From positions 1 to 64,000 of the forward strand of contig JAPOQA010000040.1 in assembly GCA_026710945.1 (NCBI GenBank): a DNA stretch of 64,000 bases. Reading direction: 5' to 3'. Below are positions 7,290 to 62,846 of this stretch, piece by piece. The notes beneath the pieces are model-generated. The model worked only from the letters and a program-made list of their open reading frames with translations. It ran no database searches and had not been told where the DNA came from. The translations under genes and the position numbers were made by a program. Source of the stretch: Chloroflexota bacterium (GTDB lineage: Bacteria > Chloroflexota > UBA11872 > VXOZ01). Position 1 is the first letter of the stretch. The number at the start of each line of letters is the position of its first letter.

Positions 7290-8366
7290 CTAGCCGGGCG
7301 CGTACTTTGGTTGGCTTGCGACGTGGCCGTGGCGGATGAAGCGCAGATCGTGGTTGGTCAAGGGCAACTCGACCCGCGCGCCGCCCCGGCGGTGCGACTC
7401 GATCATACCGAAGATGATCTGGGTGTTCCAGTACGCCACCTCCGCGCCGCCGCGGGTCGGCTCGCCCGTGTCAAGCGCAGATACGATGTCCTCAACAAGG
7501 ATCAGGGTCGCACTCTTCTGTTCAAAGTCGAGATTTGGCCCGTCCTCCGACGAGTCCATGTCCTTGCTGCGCGTACGAAATTCCACGCCGTTATTCAACG
7601 CCGCAATCATACCTCTTTCGCATACCGCCTCGACCTCGGCACGTCTGGAACTGTCCAGCCCATAGCCGAGGACGCCGTTTTCGAACATTATGGTGCCTGT
7701 GCCCGCCGGGTCCTGCAGTATCTCGGTGCCCACTACGAGCTCATCAAATTGAAAGACAAAGGCCTGCACCCATCGCGGCGTCACGTCGTTGTTGAGAAAC
7801 ATGAATAGGTCGATGAAGTGACTAAATCCATTGAAGAATTGACCAGTTGAGTAGTTGACCAAAGTGCGTAAGTCGCCAAAGTCCCCGGAGTGAATCTTGG
7901 CATGCATTGCCGCGAACCCATAGTGCCAGCGTCGGTTGGTGCCCATGTTAAAGGCGACGTTGTTGGCGCGCACAGCATCACGGATGGCTTCAGCCTCCGC
8001 AACCGAGGCACAGAGCGGTTTCTCAACATAAAGCGCACGGATTCCCGCCTCGATGGCATGCAGAATTATCTCGCAACGCTGCTCCGGCTGCGTGGTGATA
8101 CTGAGGATGTCGGGCTGTTCGTTAGCAATTAACTCGCGGTAATTGGTGTACCAATGATCTGATCCCACGTTGTAGCGTTCGCCAAACTTCGCCAGCACTT
8201 CCGAACGAAGGTCGGCGCCCGCCACGAGATCGGTGCGTGGACAGGCCTCATAGCCGGCGGCGTGGGAATACGGCAGCGGAATCGAGGGTATGCCTTGGTG
8301 TTCATTGTCGATGAATGCTCCCATGCGGCTACAGCCGACAAGCGCAGCGCGGTATGTCTTTGCCAT
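7290..8366 (-). CDS. Gfo/Idh/MocA-family oxidoreductase (tandem copy 1)
   Basis: 358-residue NAD(P)-dependent oxidoreductase of the Gfo/Idh/MocA family, which acts on sugars, inositols and related polyols. The N-terminal Rossmann motif is ALVGCSRMGAFID and the catalytic Lys lies in YVEKPLCAS (about residue 97), followed by NMGTNRRWH. A GAGGGG ribosome site precedes the ATG. It is the same length as, and very similar along its whole length to, the next upstream gene at 8684-9760, including both termini (MAKTYRAAL at the start and HRRGGARVELPLTNHDLRF near the end), so the pair arose by tandem duplication. Substrate cannot be assigned. Confidence 0.9.
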   Translation of the reverse strand: MAKTYRAALVGCSRMGAFIDNEHQGIPSIPLPYSHAAGYEACPRTDLVAGADLRSEVLAKFGERYNVGSDHWYTNYRELIANEQPDILSITTQPEQRCEIILHAIEAGIRALYVEKPLCASVAEAEAIRDAVRANNVAFNMGTNRRWHYGFAAMHAKIHSGDFGDLRTLVNYSTGQFFNGFSHFIDLFMFLNNDVTPRWVQAFVFQFDELVVGTEILQDPAGTGTIMFENGVLGYGLDSSRRAEVEAVCERGMIAALNNGVEFRTRSKDMDSSEDGPNLDFEQKSATLILVEDIVSALDTGEPTRGGAEVAYWNTQIIFGMIESHRRGGARVELPLTNHDLRFIRHGHVASQPKYAPG

Positions 8367-8683: not shown

Positions 8684-9760
8684 CTAGCCGGGTGCGTACT
8701 TCGGCTGGCGTGCCACGTGGTCGTGCCGGACGAATCGCAAGTCATGGTTAGTCAACGGGAGCTCGACTCGCGCGCCTCCACGCCGATGCGACTCGATGAA
8801 CCCGAAAATGATCTGGGTGTTCCAATAGGCCACGTCAGCCCCTCCACGAACCGGCTCACCCGTGTCCAGCGCGTGCACAAGATCGTTGACGAGGTTCAGC
8901 GTGCTGCTTGCCTCATCAAAATCTAAGTTTGGCCCGTCTGCCGACGAGTCCGGCGCCTGCGTGCGTGTGCGGATATCCGCGCCGTTGTTCAACGCCGTTA
9001 TTACCCCACTGCCGCACACTGCCTCGAACTCGGTGCGTCTTGAACCGTCTAGTGCATAGCCCAAGACTTCGTTCTCAAACATCATGATGCCCGTGCCCGC
9101 GGGATCGTCGCGCACTTCCGTGCCCACGACGAGCTCGTCAAAACGAAAGACGTAGGCCTGCACCCATTTGGGCGTGACATCGCTATTGAGATACAGCAGG
9201 AGATCGAAGAAGTGACTTGCCGTATTGAAGAAGTTCCCCGTAGAGAATATGGTAAGCGTGCGGAGATCGCCAAAGTCACCCGAGTCGATCTTGGCGCGCA
9301 TCGCCTCAAAGCCGTTGTGCCAGCGGCGATTGGTGCCCATGTTCAAGGCTACGTTGTTGGCACGGACAGCGTCGCGGATGGCTTCGGCCTCCGCTACCGA
9401 GGCGCAGAGCGGTTTTTCCACATAGAGCGCGCGGACGCCTTGCTCAATTGCATGAAGGATGATTTCACAGCGTTGCTCCGGTTGCGTGGCAATGCTGAGA
9501 ATGTCCGGCTGCTCATTGGCAATCAAGTCGCGGTAGTTCGTATACCAGTGGTCGGAACTCACATTGTAGCGGCTGCCAAACTGCTCCAACACGTCCTGCC
9601 GCAAATCAGCGCCGGCAATCAAATCGGTGCGCTCACATGCCTCATAGCCCGCAGCGTGAGAGTAGGGAAGCGTTATTGAGCGGCTTGATCTCACTTCGTT
9701 GTCTATGAAAGCTCCCATGCGGCTACAGCCGATAAGCGCTGCGCGGTAAGTCTTTGCCAT
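8684..9760 (-). CDS. Gfo/Idh/MocA-family oxidoreductase (tandem copy 2)
   Basis: 358 residues, collinear with the neighbour at 7290-8366. It keeps the Rossmann motif IGCSRMGAFIDNE and the catalytic segment LYVEKPLCASVAEAEA. The two proteins differ mostly in the substrate-facing C-terminal half (for example FSTGNFFNTASHFFDLLLYL here against YSTGQFFNGFSHFIDLFMFL), suggesting divergence in substrate choice after duplication. A GAGGAG ribosome site lies before the ATG at 9760. Confidence 0.9.
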   Translation of the reverse strand: MAKTYRAALIGCSRMGAFIDNEVRSSRSITLPYSHAAGYEACERTDLIAGADLRQDVLEQFGSRYNVSSDHWYTNYRDLIANEQPDILSIATQPEQRCEIILHAIEQGVRALYVEKPLCASVAEAEAIRDAVRANNVALNMGTNRRWHNGFEAMRAKIDSGDFGDLRTLTIFSTGNFFNTASHFFDLLLYLNSDVTPKWVQAYVFRFDELVVGTEVRDDPAGTGIMMFENEVLGYALDGSRRTEFEAVCGSGVITALNNGADIRTRTQAPDSSADGPNLDFDEASSTLNLVNDLVHALDTGEPVRGGADVAYWNTQIIFGFIESHRRGGARVELPLTNHDLRFVRHDHVARQPKYAPG

Positions 9761-52081: not shown

Positions 52082-52954
52082 TTATCCCTTGATTCGATCG
52101 GCTGCCAGCAGCGCCGCATCGCGGGGGAAATCTGCCACATCCACGCCTGCGGCCTGGAGCGCGTTGATTTTTGATTCCGCCGTGCCAATGCCGCCCGAGA
52201 CGATTGCGCCGGCGTGTCCCATGCGTTTCTCCGGTGGGGCGGTGCGACCGGCAATAAAGCCAACGACGGGCTTGGTCATGTGTGCCTCGATGTAAGCGGC
52301 TGCCTCCTCCTCATCGGTGCCGCCGATCTCGCCGATCATGACCACCGCTTCAGTTTCCGGATCACCTTCAAACATGCGCAGGACGTCGATGAAGCCGGTG
52401 CCAATCACCGGATCGCCGCCAATGCCGACGACGGTGGACTGCCCGACGTTCTCGCCAGTGAGATGAGAGACCACCTCATATGTAAGGGTGCCGGAGCGGC
52501 TGACGACGCCCACGGGACCGGGCATGTGGATGTCACCTGCCATAATGCCCACTTTGGCCTTACCCGGTGATATGAGGCCAGGGCAGTTTGGCCCTTGTAA
52601 GCGTGCGCCCTTGAGATTTACATAATGATAGACGCGCAGCATGTCTTGGACGGGAATGTGCTCGCTGATGCAGACCACGAAGGATACACCGGCATCCACC
52701 GCTTCTAAGATGGCGTCCGGCGCAAAAGGACCGGGCACAAAAATTATCGAGACGTTTGCGCCCGTCTCGCGGACCGCCTGGGAAACCGTATTGTAGACCG
52801 GCACGCCGCATGCCTCCTGGCCCCCGCGGCCCGGAGTAACACCAGCCACAACCTGCGTACCGTACTGCACCATCTGCTCCGTATGGAACGTGCCCTCACG
52901 ACCGGTGATGCCCTGTACGAGCAGGCGGGTTTGCTCATCGACTAGTATGCTCAT
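52082..52954 (-). CDS. sucD: Succinyl-CoA synthetase, alpha subunit
   Basis: 290 residues from ATG 52954, which overlaps the sucC stop as ATGA. CoA-binding N-terminal domain ([23 protein letters not shown]), [16 protein letters not shown], and the phosphorylated His in [11 protein letters not shown]. With SucC it interconverts succinyl-CoA and succinate with NTP formation. The reading frame is open far upstream to 53170, but that part overlaps sucC. Confidence 0.96.
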
Positions 52955-54117
52955 GCGCCCGTCGCCTTCGGCGCAGTCGCCTGTGGCAAAGCCGCCACTC
53001 TCACTACTTCCTGCGCAGCGGCATGCATGGTTTCGGCAGCCACGAGCCCGGCCTCTTGCAAGATTGCGCGACCCTCTGCCTGGTTGGTGCCCACCAGGCG
53101 CACCACCATCGGCACCTGACGGGATAGCGACGGCAGGGCGCTTACAATCCCCCGCGCTACCTCGTCGCACCGGGTAATGCCGCCAAAGATGTTGAAGAGG
53201 ATGGCGTTTACGTTTTCGTCATCGAGGATGATGCGCAGGGCATTGGCGACGCTTTCGGCACGGGCGCCGCCGCCGATATCGAGGAAATTGGCCGGGCTCC
53301 CGCCGCTTAGCTTGATCGTGTCCATGGTCGCCATGGCGAGTCCGGCGCCGTTGACAACGCAGCCGATGGTGCCGTCCAACTTGACGAATGACAGTCCTGC
53401 TTCGCGGGCCGCGCGTTCCGCGGGCTCTTCCTCATCGTGGTCGCGCAGGTCCGCGAGAGACTTGTGGCGGAAGAGGGCGTTGTCGTCCAGGTTGATCTTG
53501 GCATCGATGCACTGAATGGTACCTTCTGCGGTGATGACCAGCGGGTTGATTTCAACCAGCTCGCCGTCGTTCTCGGTGAGCGCCTGCACGAGAGTCTTGA
53601 CGATGCGTGCAAAATCCCTGCTCAGGTCGGACGGAATGCCAATGTCGAACGCCAGTTGGCGGCCTTGGTAGTCGGCGAATCCGGCGAGGGGGTGCACGTG
53701 CACGCGATGAATTTTTTCCGGCGTCTCCCGCGCGACCTCCTCGATCTCCACGCCGCCCTCCGCGCTTGCCATGATAGTAATGGCCTTCGTCGTGCGGTCG
53801 AGGATCACCCCGAGATATATCTCGGTAGCGATGTCTACGGCCTGCGCTACCAAGACCCGCTGTACGGTGATGCCCTTGATGTCCATGCCCAGGATGTCCG
53901 CTGCCTTCTCCGCGGCCTCATCCGGTGTGGCGGCTAGCTTTACGCCGCCCGCTTTTCCTCGTCCACCGACAAGCACCTGAGCTTTAACGACCACAGTACC
54001 GCCAATCTCGGCCGCCGCCTCCCGCGCCTCTTCCGGCGTGGTCGCCACATGCCCGGGCGGAATCGGCAACCCGTACTGCGCCAGAATGTCTTTCGCTTGA
54101 AATTCGTGAATCTTCAT
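52951..54117 (-). CDS. sucC: Succinyl-CoA synthetase, beta subunit
   Basis: 388-residue ATP-grasp subunit: [65 protein letters not shown] and [19 protein letters not shown]. It is the first gene of the TCA block on this strand and is followed by sucD with a 4-base overlap. Confidence 0.96.
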
Positions 54118-54242
54118 GAATTGAAAACTAAACCTTTGCCGGTTTTGAGGAATGTCAGCAACAGAATACCGGAATTCCTAGCCACGTGTCGAATGAGAAT
54201 TACTGCCGATTCCAGGAAAAAACTGTGGACTGCCCAGTTGGC

Positions 54243-54268
54243 TGTCACTCCGGCGCATGCCGGAGTCC
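54243..54268. repeat. P3 palindromic element
   Basis: TGTCACTCCGGCGCATGCC followed by GGAGTCC: compact hairpin in the gap between the SIR2 gene end and sucC start. It contains compensating changes relative to other P3 copies (CACTCCGG/CCGGAGT). Confidence 0.85.
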
Positions 54269-54361
54269 AGGAGAAGGGGAAAGGGAGATTCTTAGCTGCA
54301 CCAGCTAATCAGCGGGATTCCATCTTCAATGGCAGAAATGGATGCGCTCGCATTGGCACGG

Positions 54362-57300
54362 TCACTCTTCGAGTCCCTGCCTGGCCATAAGCTCCCTAAG
54401 ATTGTGCTTTGTGTCGTTGGAGATGCTCGATTCTAGAAGATTCTTAAGAAGATCTTTTGCTCCCCACCAGTGGTCCTGCACACCGATTTTGTCCAAATGA
54501 AGCAAGAAGCGCGCGAGTTCATTTGGAAATCGCTGGGGGAGATTGCCTTTCTGAAGACTGTATAGAAGGTTGCCAAACTCCGATGTGTTCTCTCCCATCC
54601 TCATTGCAAGCGCGACGGCCTCGGGAAATACGGCTGTTAGTTGCGCAGGCCAATGAAGCATCTGTGCGACTTCTTTGGGCGTGAGAGCGTACGGTACTCC
54701 CTCAAGACGGTTTTCCCAGTAGTCCTTCAACCAACGATGCCACCACTCCCGTTGTGTGGCTTCGTCCATCTCCCACAGGTAATTCTCATTGAGATTGGAG
54801 GTGAAGACCTCCCCAATGTCTGCACCTCCATCATTGAATAGCTTGGGTATCCACGTGTTCAAAGGATCCTCGACAAAGTAGGCGATCATGTAGATATAGC
54901 GTTCAATGAACTGGTCGCGTAGGTATTCGCCCTTTGTGCTAAACCATTGGACAGCTTCAAGGAACGCCTCTTCCAAGAGTTCCGCCACACTAGGATTGGG
55001 AATTATCCGAGCTAAAGCCTCCCGTGCCACTTCCCAGTTTTTGCTGTCGGGATCGAATGATGGGAGCAAGTTCTCTAACGTCCACGCTCTATCGACTGTC
55101 AATAGAAACGCGAATTCGCTGGCAAGGACGGAAATGCTCAATTTGCCGGGCAGTGTGGAGTCGTTGACAACTGTTGACAGAAGTACGCGATATTCATCGA
55201 TCATAAACTCGGGCGTGGACTCTTGGGCATTGTGCCAGACTGAAAGTCCATGCAGCCAAAACTCAGTCAGCCTTCCTGCCGTGTGCTCGTGGGCTCTTTC
55301 AAACCAGTCGTCTAGGTGTTGATCTGTCTCTTCCCATTTAAGGTCTTGCCAAAGAGCGGAAGCGATGCTATTGGCGACCGAGAGTAGCTTTAGCGCATAG
55401 GGTTTGCCCCTGTTTTGCACCAATGAGAACAGTACATTGGCAATTTCATAGGCATACTTGGCATCTATGCCACTGTTAGCTAGGCATGAAATCACGCTAC
55501 GGTACTGTTCCTCGTCTAAGTCCATAGCCATCCAGGCATTCAGCAAAGAGGTCCAAAGGTCAGTTTCCAGATTTCCACTCTGTGCCAATGATTCAGCAAG
55601 TTCGAACCCCCAGTCAAAACTCTGCTTTGCCGCTTCGGTTAAGACACTCAACAACCCATTGCGGTTTAGCATGTAGTGTTCACTCGGATCGAATGCAAGT
55701 AGCTCCTCTCGCCAAGTGGCTGCTGGTCTATCCAATAACTCTTCAACAGTCCAAGGGCTTCGCGGACCTAACGAAAGTTCTGAGTAAATGAGGAAGTCTG
55801 GATGTTCTCGCGGTCTGAATTCTGGAAGGAGTCTTGAAGTCTCATCACGGGCTTGCTTCGCTATTGGGCAATCCAAATCATTTGAAATGAGCCAATGAAA
55901 CCAGTCGAGTTTGTGCCGTGCTTCAATCTGCCTAGGTGTCAAGGTTGTGTCTTGCTTTCCCTCCCAGCGGAACTCTAGAATTGCCGAGACTAGTGCTCTC
56001 TTGGTCCTTTTGTTGGCATTCGGATAAGCATGTGCCGCTAAGCGGAATACTTCGTGGTGGATTTCGTGATCATGAATATTGACGTTTGTCAGTAGCCATT
56101 CGATCTTCTCATGCGAAGCAGGCTCTCTTTGAGCGCAAATAGTGTTCAAAGCAAGGCGACGTAAGATGGGAGCGTCCGAAGTAGCTAAACAATTCCGCCA
56201 CCTCGTTGCTGCACTCGCCCGATTCTCCGCTAGCCATTCAAGTGAATCCCGCGCTATATTAACTAAGATAGTCGACAATCCGGTTGACCTATTCTGTTCG
56301 TGCTCCTCAATGGCAGGACGTTCCCAGTTTTCGCTCGTTCCCCAGATGCGAAGGACGCTGTCCCTTTCTTCCAAGCGCTTAGTGGCAATGCTAATCACAG
56401 ATTCTACGACCTGGTCGATTGTAGGTCTGAGGCTGTCCTCCCACAAACCTCTGAGTGCATAAGTTGCGCCAGTAAATCTTAATCCCGCTCTGATTGGCGT
56501 CTTTTCATCGTTTTCAAGGTCGTACCCTTGCTTCAGGGTTAGACGGCTTGCCGTCATCGCATCAAACAACTGAATCAAGCTCTTCAACAGTCCTTGTTGC
56601 GCGCACAGCCTAGCCAGTGAGGACAAGATATGGTGAGAATTCGTATCCTGCGGAATATCCGCGATCAATACAGATATCCAGCGTGACAAGGCCGTTTCAT
56701 TTATCTCGGCCTCACTCTTCGAGACATGGTGGCCTGTCTTCCACCAAAGATTCGGGTGCAGGCGCAGGTTGTGTCTCCCTATCAGGAGAAAGAGCCTATC
56801 GGGGTGTTGGCACGCGAATTGGCTACTAAGCCACCAAGAGAGGATGCCCTCTATCCCGTTAAGTTCCCCGAATTCAAACAGTGAATCTAGGTAACTGCGC
56901 TCGTCCAGCCACTCAATCCATTCAGGTGACGTGGCGTGCTCGGCAAAGAACCTGGTCTTGACCTCATCTCTAAGCGCTTCCTCGATGACGTCAGCCTCTT
57001 CCCTGCCGCGCGGTGGTGGTTGCTGCGCAATGTCCTTGATAAGGCGCTGCCAACCCAATATGCCGAGGCGAACATGATTCGCCAGGCGTTCGATTCCTAA
57101 GTCGAGTGCGCCGTGATCGTTCTTGGTTGGTATTGGATAGAGAATTGGTTCAATACCAAGGGTTTTCCAGCGCTGAAATTTCTCACTTTCATTCCCCACT
57201 TCGTCGCCAATTAGAGCGTAGCGCTTTGCTTCGTTCACTGGCAATGCACGCGCCAAGTAGTGCATGTCAGTGTCTCTGTGGCTATAGCCTACAAAGAGGA

Positions 57301-57877
57301 CCGTGTATTCGCGGAAGAGGGATACAAGAAAGCGACGCGCCCAGCCCTCGGTCAGATACGCCTTGCCAAAGTCTTTGTCAGTAAGCACCATATTGTGGGG
57401 GCAGCTTACCGCGCCGTGAACGTGGACGATGCCGCTGAAGTCATCGCCCAAGGGCAAGGCGGGCGCTCGGAACTGCTCGGGTTTAGTATCAAACATATCT
57501 TCAATTTCGGCCGCCTGCTCGAACAGTTCGTCGAAGTTGGTCGTTACGAGGCGAACGCTCTGATCTCTTGTAAAGAGCCGCAGGAGATTGAAATGTAGAG
57601 CGTTTGGCTTCAGGCCATCCCGCGTAAGGGCTTTGGCGGCAAGGGCATGGACATCTGTCCTATTCTCTTGCTGGAGTCGGCCCAGAAAGCGATCTTCGGT
57701 TTCGCCCTTCTGCGATTCAACGCCAGTCCCACTTGCGATCTCGCAAGCCAACTGTTTGAAATCTGGTAGACGAGCCGGTTCCCCCTTAGAAACACCTGCT
57801 CCAGCGAAGACAGCAAGCGTGTTGTCGCGTAAGGCATCCATTACTTCCCGGGGGAAATCTATGTCTGCAATTCTCAT
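54362..57877 (-). CDS. Large SIR2-domain protein, candidate defence NADase
   Basis: 1171 residues from ATG 57877, preceded by GGTGA; the frame is open further to 57982. Residues about 1-300 are a SIR2 (sirtuin-like NAD-binding) domain: VFAGAGVS (23-30), VTTNFDELFE (111-120), VHVHGAV with catalytic His (151-157), and VLFVGYSHRDTDMHYLARA (193-211). The remaining 850 residues are Trp-rich and helical, with no zinc, helicase or nuclease motif, and look like a long repeat scaffold. This is the architecture of defence-associated sirtuins (DSR1/DSR2-like, SIR2 with DUF4020-type C-terminal), which deplete NAD on phage infection. GC of sampled lines is about 43-53% against 67% in sucC, consistent with transfer. 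No partner gene is adjacent. Confidence 0.8.
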   Translation of the reverse strand: MRIADIDFPREVMDALRDNTLAVFAGAGVSKGEPARLPDFKQLACEIASGTGVESQKGETEDRFLGRLQQENRTDVHALAAKALTRDGLKPNALHFNLLRLFTRDQSVRLVTTNFDELFEQAAEIEDMFDTKPEQFRAPALPLGDDFSGIVHVHGAVSCPHNMVLTDKDFGKAYLTEGWARRFLVSLFREYTVLFVGYSHRDTDMHYLARALPVNEAKRYALIGDEVGNESEKFQRWKTLGIEPILYPIPTKNDHGALDLGIERLANHVRLGILGWQRLIKDIAQQPPPRGREEADVIEEALRDEVKTRFFAEHATSPEWIEWLDERSYLDSLFEFGELNGIEGILSWWLSSQFACQHPDRLFLLIGRHNLRLHPNLWWKTGHHVSKSEAEINETALSRWISVLIADIPQDTNSHHILSSLARLCAQQGLLKSLIQLFDAMTASRLTLKQGYDLENDEKTPIRAGLRFTGATYALRGLWEDSLRPTIDQVVESVISIATKRLEERDSVLRIWGTSENWERPAIEEHEQNRSTGLSTILVNIARDSLEWLAENRASAATRWRNCLATSDAPILRRLALNTICAQREPASHEKIEWLLTNVNIHDHEIHHEVFRLAAHAYPNANKRTKRALVSAILEFRWEGKQDTTLTPRQIEARHKLDWFHWLISNDLDCPIAKQARDETSRLLPEFRPREHPDFLIYSELSLGPRSPWTVEELLDRPAATWREELLAFDPSEHYMLNRNGLLSVLTEAAKQSFDWGFELAESLAQSGNLETDLWTSLLNAWMAMDLDEEQYRSVISCLANSGIDAKYAYEIANVLFSLVQNRGKPYALKLLSVANSIASALWQDLKWEETDQHLDDWFERAHEHTAGRLTEFWLHGLSVWHNAQESTPEFMIDEYRVLLSTVVNDSTLPGKLSISVLASEFAFLLTVDRAWTLENLLPSFDPDSKNWEVAREALARIIPNPSVAELLEEAFLEAVQWFSTKGEYLRDQFIERYIYMIAYFVEDPLNTWIPKLFNDGGADIGEVFTSNLNENYLWEMDEATQREWWHRWLKDYWENRLEGVPYALTPKEVAQMLHWPAQLTAVFPEAVALAMRMGENTSEFGNLLYSLQKGNLPQRFPNELARFLLHLDKIGVQDHWWGAKDLLKNLLESSISNDTKHNLRELMARQGLEE

Positions 57878-57929
57878 CTGTGAAGTCACCAATGCATGCG
57901 GTAGCCACACCTGAGTCTCTACACCTATC

Positions 57930-57935
57930 ATTATA
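57930..57935 (-). promoter_or_regulatory. Possible -10 box upstream of the SIR2 gene
   Basis: Perfect TATAAT on the minus strand, about 55 bases before the chosen start at 57877. A -35 is not clear. If used, transcription would begin between this box and the ATG, which supports the start at 57877 over the ones further upstream. Confidence 0.4.
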
Positions 57936-58060
57936 CTTTGTAAACTTGCGTGGGTTGACTGCGGACTTGATTCGCATTGCAATGCTAGTAGATGCTTGGA
58001 GTCTGTCTAAGGAATTTAGGGCCAGCTTTAGTAGCAATACCTTGTTAAGGAGACTGGAGA

Positions 58061-59020
58061 ATGCAATTACGTACGTTGGGAAGAACCGGCATACGCATCT
58101 CGGAGGTGGGGTTGGGGACGTGGGGGATGGGCGGCGATCGTTATGGGCGGGCGGACGACGCGGAGTCGCGGGGCGCGATCTTGCGCGCCTTGGAGCTTGG
58201 CATTAATCACATCGATACCGCTCCCATATATGGCAACGGCCGCAGTGAAGAGGTGATCGGCGATGCCATTGCGGGGCGACGTCACGAGGTGGTGCTGGCC
58301 AGCAAGGTGGGCATGTTTCCCGGCGGGCGGCAGAACTTTGACTACTCAGGTCCAAGGGTTATGCGCGAAGTCGAGCAGAGCCTGCGCCGCCTGCGTACGG
58401 ACTACCTGGACATCTTCTATCTCCATAGCCCGGATGAGGATCTCTTTCGTGACGATGGCCTGGAAGCGCTCGTCCGCCTGAAGGAGCAGGGCAAAATCAG
58501 AGCCACAGGCTTCTCCGTCATGTCGGTAGATGAGGGTATTCCACTGGCGATGCGTCTCATCGACCAGGGACAGGTGGATGTCATCCAGCAGGCATATCGT
58601 CTCTTATACACCTTGCCCGCCACGGAGCTCTTCCCAATGGCTGAGGCAAGAAACGTAGGTGTAATCGCGCGAGAAAACTTCTACTTTGGGTTCCTCACCG
58701 GCGCCATTACGCGCAAGACGGTCTTCGACGATTATGACGACCGGCGCAAATTCAGGGCGGACTTCATCGATGCCGTGCTGGCGCGCGTAGAGAAGCTGGA
58801 CTTTCTCACGAACGGGCGCACGATGACGCAGGCCGCGCTGCAGTTCGTGCTTGCCACACCGGGCGTGCATGGCGTGATTCCCGGGGCGATGACGGTTGCC
58901 GAAGTCGAGGACAACGTACGGGCCTCGGGTGGCAAGACGGTTACAACTGAGGAAATGGCACAGGTCTTGGATCTGGAGGCGCGCGACTACGATCTGCCGC
59001 CTATTCCGCCGCCGGTGTGA
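58061..59020 (+). CDS. Aldo/keto reductase
   Basis: 319-residue AKR barrel. Catalytic tetrad: Asp in NHIDTAPIYGNG (with Tyr), Lys in VVLASKVGMFPG, His in DIFYLHSPDEDL. Later ITRKTVFDDYDD and the NADP site ATPGVHGVIPGAMTVAEV. AGGAG precedes the ATG. The last residues YDLPPIPPPV have been copied several times into the downstream tandem array. Confidence 0.93.
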   Translation: MQLRTLGRTGIRISEVGLGTWGMGGDRYGRADDAESRGAILRALELGINHIDTAPIYGNGRSEEVIGDAIAGRRHEVVLASKVGMFPGGRQNFDYSGPRVMREVEQSLRRLRTDYLDIFYLHSPDEDLFRDDGLEALVRLKEQGKIRATGFSVMSVDEGIPLAMRLIDQGQVDVIQQAYRLLYTLPATELFPMAEARNVGVIARENFYFGFLTGAITRKTVFDDYDDRRKFRADFIDAVLARVEKLDFLTNGRTMTQAALQFVLATPGVHGVIPGAMTVAEVEDNVRASGGKTVTTEEMAQVLDLEARDYDLPPIPPPV

Positions 59021-60971: not shown

Positions 60972-62846
60972 TTAGCGACGGTCGCTGCTCTTGCGCAGAA
61001 TGTTGCTGCGCCCGCGCGGCGGTCCTTCCGGCAGCCCGGAGGCGTCCACTTCGCGTCGGCGGCGCGTCTCGTCCGAGAAGTACTTGGCCCACTCGGCGGG
61101 CGCATCGGGTTCTATGCCCCCGTGGCGCGTGATCCGCTGCCTGACTCGAATGGAAAGCGGCGTATTGACGGCGGCTCCGGCCACAATCGCCTGCCCCTTG
61201 GAGAGCGCCGGCAATTCCGCCAATAGGTCATGGCTCGCGCTCTCGACGGCCGCGGCCACGCTGCTCTGGTCATACTCGTTGACGATGCGCAGCAGGAATT
61301 GCGTCATACACTGCGAGAGCACGTCGGAATCAAGCTTGCCGGGGCGTTGGCTGATGAGGCCCACGCCTACCCCAAACTTGCGCCCCTCGGCCAGGACGGT
61401 CTTGAGGATATTCGTGGTGACCACGTCTTCATTTGCCGGGGCAAAGTGATGGGCCTCTTCGAGCAGAACGAAGACTGGATAATCAAGTCGGTCCTTCGGG
61501 CCGCCGATTCCCTTAGCCGCATTCATGCGGGCTTTCCAAATCATGCGCAAGAGCACGGCCACGATTACTTGCTGCTGACGGCGATCAATTTCGTTGAGCT
61601 GCAGCACGGAACAGAGGCCGGGACGGAAGAGCTGGTGCAGATCAATGGTTTCAATGTTGTCGAAGTTCGGTGACTCGGCAAAGAGGCTTTTGAGGCGCCA
61701 ATGCAACGCTCGTGCACTGCCGCGCATTTGCAGATCCGGCTTGGCGCGACTGCTTTGCTGTTCCATTCCGCCAGCGTCGTCAAGCCAGTCAAGGTTGCCG
61801 TCGTCTGAAGATTGATTCCCACTTTCGCGGGAATGACGAGACTGTGCCGCAGCCTGCTCTTCCTCTCCGCTCTGCATGTGTTCCAAGGTTCCAATGAGGT
61901 CACCCGTTGTCCATGGGGTCTTGTCTTTGCGATCGCCCTCCACGCGATCCAACGCCAATCGCAGTGCGTATTCCATGGGTCCGGAGAGGCCGAATTGCGC
62001 GCCGAGAAGGAAGCGCATGTCGTAGAACGTAAGGTCAGACACACGAATCTTCACCTGGTCCTGGGGGACGGTCCTTACCTCTGCCTTGTAACCGTCGTCG
62101 GCACTGAAGTCGGCGGCATTTCGAATTTCCTCCAGCGTATCGTACTCCCCATGAGGGTCTACAACGAGAATACTGGCGCGGTTGATGGACTTCATCATCT
62201 CTTCGATCAAGACGGAGGCAAGATAACTTTTGCCTGCGCCGGTACCGGCGATAATTGCCATGTGCGTTGCCGTAATGGAACGGACATCCAATACCACCGG
62301 GACTCCCTCGGTGAAATCTGCTTTGGGGTTAAAGGCGGGACGGGAGAGTAAAGACCCGACAAATGCACCGCCTCGCTCTGCTTCGCCAATATTTCGGTCA
62401 AACGCGACTCGATTCAACACCGCTGCGAGCGCGTCGTCCGGGGCCAGGTAGATTTTCCAGCCTATGCGCGGCGGGATGCGTGGATTGACGAAGGCGCTCA
62501 ACTGCGCATCGTGGTAGCCCATGATGCTGACGTGGATTTCGAATAGTTCGTCAGAGGCAGTATCGGGTCCAGCCGTGCCATTCGGGGACAGCTCGGAAGA
62601 ACTGTGGTAGCCGACGAGCGCTGCCATTTGCGCCGGGTCAACTTCCGGATGGGCGAGGAAGGAATCCGGATAGAGCCGCAGCGGAACGCGCCGTATCACA
62701 CGTCCGAGTATTTGACGCTGCGTGCCGTCAACCTCGGCTTCGTAATAGACGACCTCGCTCGTCTTTCCCCGCCGCTCGGTATCGGGGGTGACGAATGTAT
62801 ACTCGTTCGGTGTTTCGCCGGGTCCCTTGGCAATGCCAATAATCAT
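60972..62846 (-). CDS. HerA-like ATPase
   Basis: 624 residues. N-terminal HAS-barrel-like domain (GIAKGPGETPNEYTFVTPD), then Walker A MAIIAGTGAGKSYLASVL (about residue 220), Walker B VFVLLEEAHHFAP and GLISQRPGKLDSDVLSQC; C-terminal ATPase lobe ends VGAAVNTPLSIRV. HerA pumps DNA with the nuclease NurA or in defence pairs; no NurA gene is adjacent. A 40-residue insertion between the ATPase segments contains HSRESGNQSSD, the translation of a P3 palindrome (61813-61837). Confidence 0.88.
   Translation of the reverse strand: MIIGIAKGPGETPNEYTFVTPDTERRGKTSEVVYYEAEVDGTQRQILGRVIRRVPLRLYPDSFLAHPEVDPAQMAALVGYHSSSELSPNGTAGPDTASDELFEIHVSIMGYHDAQLSAFVNPRIPPRIGWKIYLAPDDALAAVLNRVAFDRNIGEAERGGAFVGSLLSRPAFNPKADFTEGVPVVLDVRSITATHMAIIAGTGAGKSYLASVLIEEMMKSINRASILVVDPHGEYDTLEEIRNAADFSADDGYKAEVRTVPQDQVKIRVSDLTFYDMRFLLGAQFGLSGPMEYALRLALDRVEGDRKDKTPWTTGDLIGTLEHMQSGEEEQAAAQSRHSRESGNQSSDDGNLDWLDDAGGMEQQSSRAKPDLQMRGSARALHWRLKSLFAESPNFDNIETIDLHQLFRPGLCSVLQLNEIDRRQQQVIVAVLLRMIWKARMNAAKGIGGPKDRLDYPVFVLLEEAHHFAPANEDVVTTNILKTVLAEGRKFGVGVGLISQRPGKLDSDVLSQCMTQFLLRIVNEYDQSSVAAAVESASHDLLAELPALSKGQAIVAGAAVNTPLSIRVRQRITRHGGIEPDAPAEWAKYFSDETRRRREVDASGLPEGPPRGRSNILRKSSDRR
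61813..61837 (-). repeat. P3 palindrome inserted in frame in herA-like gene
   Basis: GATTCCCACTTTCGCGGGAA then TGACG on the plus strand; on the minus strand it reads in frame as RHSRESGNQ. It belongs to the same repeat family as 9888 and 25906. The insertion falls in a low-complexity acidic stretch, so the core of the ATPase should tolerate it. Confidence 0.9.

Follow-up and report, generated by a model that had tools for sequence, protein, structure and literature searches.

Defence-associated sirtuins and a few other NAD-directed proteins are the closest described systems to the gene reported here. According to a review, DSR1 inhibits the replication of phages but does not kill the cell (PMC10952713). 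DSR2 is triggered by the phage tail tube protein, which leads to the destruction of NAD+ (PMC10973363, PMC11087589), and its catalytic mutant is N133A/H171A (PMC10973363). DUF4062 proteins are reported to act against phages as NADases and to form assemblies with the phage portal (PMC13174449). Our literature search found neither a trigger for DSR1 nor a TIR protein with a DSR1 tail, and nothing on DUF4020; a sequence search found no solved structure of DSR1.

The DNA analysed is a 64,000-nucleotide stretch of contig JAPOQA010000040.1 from a Chloroflexota bacterium, hereafter the window. A first-pass annotation, made from the letters alone, had pointed to a lone 1171-residue SIR2 protein in it as a candidate for phage defence. 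We consider it very likely that this gene forms by itself a phage-defence system of the DSR1 lineage, in which the tail of the protein senses a phage component and the SIR2 head hydrolyses NAD+. The features of the gene and its product are as follows.

54362..57877, minus strand: complete SIR2-DUF4020 gene for a probable DSR1-lineage defence sirtuin (intact ORF, ATG start, 1171 aa)
57068..57877, minus strand: N-terminal SIR2 NADase-type domain, residues 1-270 (Pfam SIR2_2; Foldseek)
57536..57538, minus strand: codon of Asn114 (TTNFD), equivalent to catalytic N133 of DSR2 (alignment to DSR2 chains)
57416..57418, minus strand: codon of His154 (HVHG), counterpart of the catalytic His in SIR2 domains of the ThsA type (ThsA and KomC alignments)
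54365..57010, minus strand: C-terminal HEAT-like helical solenoid, residues 290-1171, putative sensor (AlphaFold2, Foldseek, hhalign)
55682..56350, minus strand: putative core sensor module, residues 510-732 (alignment A7, profile controls, survey)
54518..54772, minus strand: DUF4020 match, residues 1036-1120 (Pfam)

The open reading frame was intact as claimed, with 1171 codons from an ATG and no internal stop, and since relatives open with the same M[KR]I..[IL][DE]FP segment, translation probably starts from this ATG, at 57877. All four NAD-binding motifs named in the first-pass annotation were located, VFAGAGVS at residues 23-30, TTNFDE at 112-117, HVHG at 152-155 and VGYSHRD at 196-202. 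Two Pfam domains were found in the expected order and above their gathering scores: SIR2_2 (PF13289) at residues 110-245 (2e-22, 80.3 bits against a cut-off of 24.5) and DUF4020 (PF13212) at residues 1036-1120 (1.3e-6, 28.7 bits against 22.7), the latter being present in 36 of 41 relatives. In the PDB, the relatives of the SIR2 domain are ThsA, KomC and DSR2. The core module carries the motifs AIEPHxQN, RD, RRLA, HHE and EHPDF, which are common to DSR1 and to the TIR- and DUF4062-headed proteins described below.

The AlphaFold2 model of the protein (mean pLDDT 88.2, pTM 0.71) consists of a Rossmann-type SIR2 head followed by a long chain of helix pairs, which bears out the helical C-terminal part proposed earlier. 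A structural comparison with DSR2 had also been proposed; in the Foldseek ranking against the PDB the DSR2 complexes came best (E 1.9e-9), ahead of ThsA, KomC, karyopherins and HEAT subunits of condensin, and the global TM-scores against DSR2 were low, about 0.2, so that the predicted model does not establish the detailed geometry. Low TM-scores in long alignments are expected, because solenoids are flexible. The top rank of DSR2 may simply mark it as the nearest solved structure, given that no solved DSR1 was found.

To place the tail, we relied on profile comparisons. A profile of the window family (46 sequences) aligned end to end with five annotated DSR1 proteins by hhalign over 1137 columns (E 3.6e-91, about 20% identity), and the tail alone aligned with the DSR1 tail at Prob 100 (E 1.7e-50, 808 columns), whereas head-versus-tail cross-domain controls stayed below Prob 2. 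Scored with the tail HMM, the annotated DSR1 proteins reached 167-192 bits, and no reversed, shuffled or unrelated protein exceeded 5 bits. By tblastn, the window protein and annotated DSR1 had the SIR2 domain alone in common. The first-pass annotation had further suggested a domain search with DUF4020 and DSR models: DUF4020 was above its cut-off, and NCBIfam Dsr1 (NF041818) was matched at 267 bits, far below the equivalog cut-off of 1400 bits. NF041818 was matched by all 41 relatives (best E 1.7e-100), far under the 1400-bit score. From the tail homology, the sub-cut-off score and the lack of a DUF4020 match in the annotated DSR1 proteins tested we conclude that the protein is a divergent variant of the DSR1 lineage and not DSR1 in the strict sense. 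The layout of a defence-associated sirtuin claimed earlier therefore stands in a refined form, as SIR2_2 with a DSR1-type tail that by sequence is not detectably of the DSR2 type; homology was to the DSR1 lineage and not to a non-defence family.

The best Foldseek matches and the related SIR2 domains would fit a sirtuin of the DSR2 type that recognises the phage tail tube protein in just the way DSR2 of B. subtilis does, but the tails tell otherwise: against two DSR2-like Chloroflexota proteins the window tail reached only Prob 1.1 by hhalign, with HMM scores below zero, compared with Prob 100 against DSR1, and NCBIfam Dsr2 (NF041819) matched just 4 of the 41 relatives, with a best E of 5.8e-6. 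Membership in the DSR2 family was rejected on the tail comparison, and we regard this explanation as improbable. The tail tube protein is nevertheless a possible trigger of the window protein.

A profile search of 400 Chloroflexota genomes was used to find relatives of the tail alone, and it recovered the tail on other heads. The 1104-aa protein at L128:4094-7405 (minus strand) joins a TIR_2 head (5.7e-11) to a DSR1 tail, which matched the PADLOC Dsr1 model at 3.3e-215 over residues 147-1103; judged by its sequence, it is an effector-swapped DSR1. The 1480-aa protein at L129:3849-8288 (minus strand) has a DUF4062 head (1.5e-22), an NTPase-like (AAA_16-like) middle part and a DSR1 tail (2.7e-83), and directly downstream of it lies a separate 507-aa SIR2_2 protein (L129:2278-3798, minus strand). 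Five further proteins carry the tail module with no recognised catalytic head (L130:2338-5914, plus strand; L150:3977-7418, L131:2870-6166, L151:4401-7100 and L152:3992-7468, all minus strand); their N-termini are helical, or they have small partner genes, and Pfam assigned neither to a clear family. Two of these headless genes follow a gene of 227-240 aa, likewise with no clear Pfam match, which possibly encodes a separate effector.

TIR, SIR2 and DUF4062 are all NADase-type domains. The presence of the same tail on all three heads supports a design of sensor plus NAD-depleting effector, and among the computational lines of evidence this exchange of heads on one tail is the strongest for that design. 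On balance we favour the view, with some reserve, that the DSR1 tail is a widely used phage-sensing cassette, a HEAT-like module combined with a SIR2 head, a TIR head or a DUF4062 head plus STAND-like NTPase, and possibly with helical heads or partners that are not NADases, of which the window protein would be one branch. If this is true, a swap of heads would keep the trigger and a swap of tails would keep the mode of killing. The shared tail makes sensing testable across proteins that are expected to recognise the same kind of phage component.

Relatives of the whole protein were sought by scanning 84,980 species genomes, which yielded 73 loci, mostly full-length and scattered across many phyla; 46 full-length sequences were aligned. 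Asn114, His154, the GAGxS loop and GY..D were invariant in all 46, so the loss of the catalytic His or Asn that would have spoken against the first-pass reading was not seen. Conservation peaked at head residues 151-200 and was lower along the tail, a profile that fits a constant enzyme with a variable sensor. The existence of full-length relatives with invariant motifs in many phyla, together with the purifying selection described below, excludes chance as the origin of the frame. Phylum labels were mixed in the tree (18 changes against a minimum of 12), which suggests transfer, the ranks being those in the titles of metagenome-assembled genomes. The branch of the window protein is a mixture of Chloroflexota, Acidobacteriota, Latescibacterota, Poribacteria and other bins. 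To judge from their names, bin prefixes such as RHO, IRC, APA and COS correspond to the sponge species sampled in a metagenome study that also reports an enrichment of defence genes, as well as lateral transfer among the symbionts of sponges (PMC8163846).

We also compared the neighbours of these genes with the window. In a set of 117 ORFs flanking 20 relatives, the PADLOC matches reaching at least 1e-10 included BrxC, PglX, DpdJ, AriA, AbiLi, AbiEii, Ppl, type I S, type IIG and TniQ, whereas among the 43 other ORFs of the window the HerA-like ATPase alone gave a match. These matches were counted per family and not per protein, and the two ORF sets were not matched for genome, so the defence-rich neighbourhoods are supportive and do not amount to a formal enrichment test. 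In the window genome no second defence system adjoins the gene. Beside the relative in genome G013, terminase-like and RhuM/Fic-type ORFs (L032:5291-8043), judged by eye, suggest a phage-derived neighbourhood. The window protein itself had no match in 50,697 phage records, viral contigs held one relative, and BFVD gave low-TM matches only; a phage-borne origin was rejected as unsupported by these searches.

The gene is the only copy in the genome and stands alone between sucC (52951-54117) and an aldo/keto reductase gene (58061-59020), with no partner among the adjacent genes; both its solitary state and its position at the edge of a core metabolic block had been noted in the first-pass annotation. 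Comparison with congeners delimited two features at the site.

54199..58050: presence/absence segment in the sucC-aldo/keto reductase interval (blastn against G037, G038 and G040; boundary sequences)
54247..54266: inverted repeat ACTCCGGCGCATGCCGGAGT between the SIR2 stop and sucC (sequence)

The segment contains the SIR2-DUF4020 gene alone. G037, G038 and G040, which are further species of the genus, lack it at the same site: their conserved sucC and reductase flanks lie about 130-250 bases apart with no gene between, and no SIR2 match was found anywhere in these three genomes. The fourth congener, G039, has a homologue with 59% identity at the same site (L031:10177-13887). In both carriers the left boundary falls just past a conserved sucC leader ending in ..TGTCGAATGAGA and the right boundary in the ribosome-binding region of the reductase gene. 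The congener copy has an element similar to the inverted repeat in the corresponding position; the repeat may be a terminator or a REP-type element. A search for direct repeats as footprints of insertion gave chance-like pairs only. The apparent extra stretch of about 50 residues in the congener copy is not a real insert but comes from an assembly gap, a run of N whose edge is duplicated.

In the tree, the copies of the two carriers group as sisters. Synonymous differences between them (pS 0.71) are slightly above those of the flanking genes (0.49-0.66), the divergence of the proteins is much higher than in the flanking genes, and dN/dS is 0.135, which indicates purifying selection. Taken with the patchy presence, these values describe a gene that is selectively kept, evolves fast and is often absent; full-length genes were found in 4 of the 41 genomes of the class. 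The site pattern may have arisen from a single ancient gain followed by losses, or the gene may have entered the same site more than once. The lower GC on which the first-pass annotation had based an acquisition was confirmed (about 0.50-0.52 against 0.55-0.61 in the surroundings; third-position GC 0.55 against 0.64-0.75 in the neighbours), but the congener copy is equally low (third-position GC 0.52), so that GC alone gives no date of acquisition. Closely related genomes that either have or lack the gene at this site provide a clean view of the turnover of a single-gene defence in sponge-type symbionts. Elsewhere in the window, two adjacent 358-aa Gfo/Idh-type oxidoreductase genes (7290-8366 and 8684-9760, minus strand) have the look of a tandem duplication.

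These data bear on three further explanations. That the protein is a metabolic or regulatory sirtuin of the host, a protein deacylase with no part in defence, is very unlikely: it has weak matches to NAD-dependent deacylase models and metabolic genes as neighbours, but its Pfam family is SIR2_2 and not SIR2, its N-terminal domain has two Cys only (44 and 159), which rules out a four-Cys zinc site, the gene is missing from three of the four congeners with a good genome, and the tail is of the DSR1 type, with heads exchanged for TIR and DUF4062. We give equally little credence to a relic of foreign origin that is in decay and no longer has a function, which would explain the low GC and patchy presence but is at odds with the intact 3.5-kb frame, the dN/dS value against the congener copy and the retained catalytic residues. 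Least probable of all is the effector half of a Sir2-HerA pair, with the HerA/DUF87 ATPase 3 kb away in the window (60972-62846) as partner, a pairing we rejected because congeners that lack the SIR2 gene retain the ATPase gene in this position with 82-86% identity; two other genes lie between the SIR2 and ATPase genes, the ATPase scores far below the cut-offs of anti-phage HerA models, and the SIR2 protein has a DSR1-type tail of its own. This HerA-like DUF87 ATPase gene (minus strand) was present in all congeners checked, and its coding sequence contains an RHSRESGN-type stretch resembling a palindromic repeat inserted in frame, seen also in G037 and G040.

The domains, the homology of the tail to DSR1, the patchy distribution, the presence and absence at one site, the defence neighbourhoods and the exchange of effectors all indicate that the window protein is a defence-associated sirtuin. 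The first-pass annotation was correct in what it observed and, broadly, in how it interpreted it. In the mechanism that we propose, the C-terminal HEAT-like solenoid would bind a phage component directly, most likely a structural protein of the virion made late in infection. Binding would rearrange the protein, probably as an oligomer by analogy with DSR2, and activate the SIR2 domain, which would then hydrolyse NAD+ by means of Asn114 and His154 and so stop phage production. We infer a protein with NADase activity that oligomerises, responds to a triggering phage protein and confers protection. Abortive infection should not be assumed for it, as DSR1 acts without killing the cell (PMC10952713).

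Compared with known systems, the protein shares a SIR2_2-type catalytic domain with the SIR2 NADases ThsA (Thoeris) and KomC, but has a long solenoid tail in place of a SLOG domain or partner gene; Pfam gave no SLOG match, and the neighbours are sucC and the aldo/keto reductase gene, with no ThsB TIR gene beside it. With Swarozyc and the DUF4062 TIR-like NADases the link is the DUF4062-headed Chloroflexota protein that carries the same tail module, whereas the catalytic head differs from SIR2; the likeness of the tail is known from that one protein. DSR2 of B. subtilis (PDB 8WKN and others) resembles it in the SIR2 head, in N114 as the counterpart of N133 and in the helical-solenoid tail, but the tails, compared through the two DSR2-like Chloroflexota proteins, have no detectable sequence homology. 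DSR1 is the nearest: both are single-gene systems in which a SIR2 head precedes a long helical tail, the proteins are collinear throughout, and they have the same catalytic Asn and His and the tail motifs AIEPHxQN and RRLA in common. The window protein differs from DSR1 in its length (1171 aa against about 1265 aa), in a tail that matches the Pfam model DUF4020, unlike the tails of those annotated DSR1 proteins that were tested, and in belonging to a separate clade with 100% SH-aLRT. The DSR1 lineage is thereby extended to a large and widely scattered clade that has no name in the standard models.
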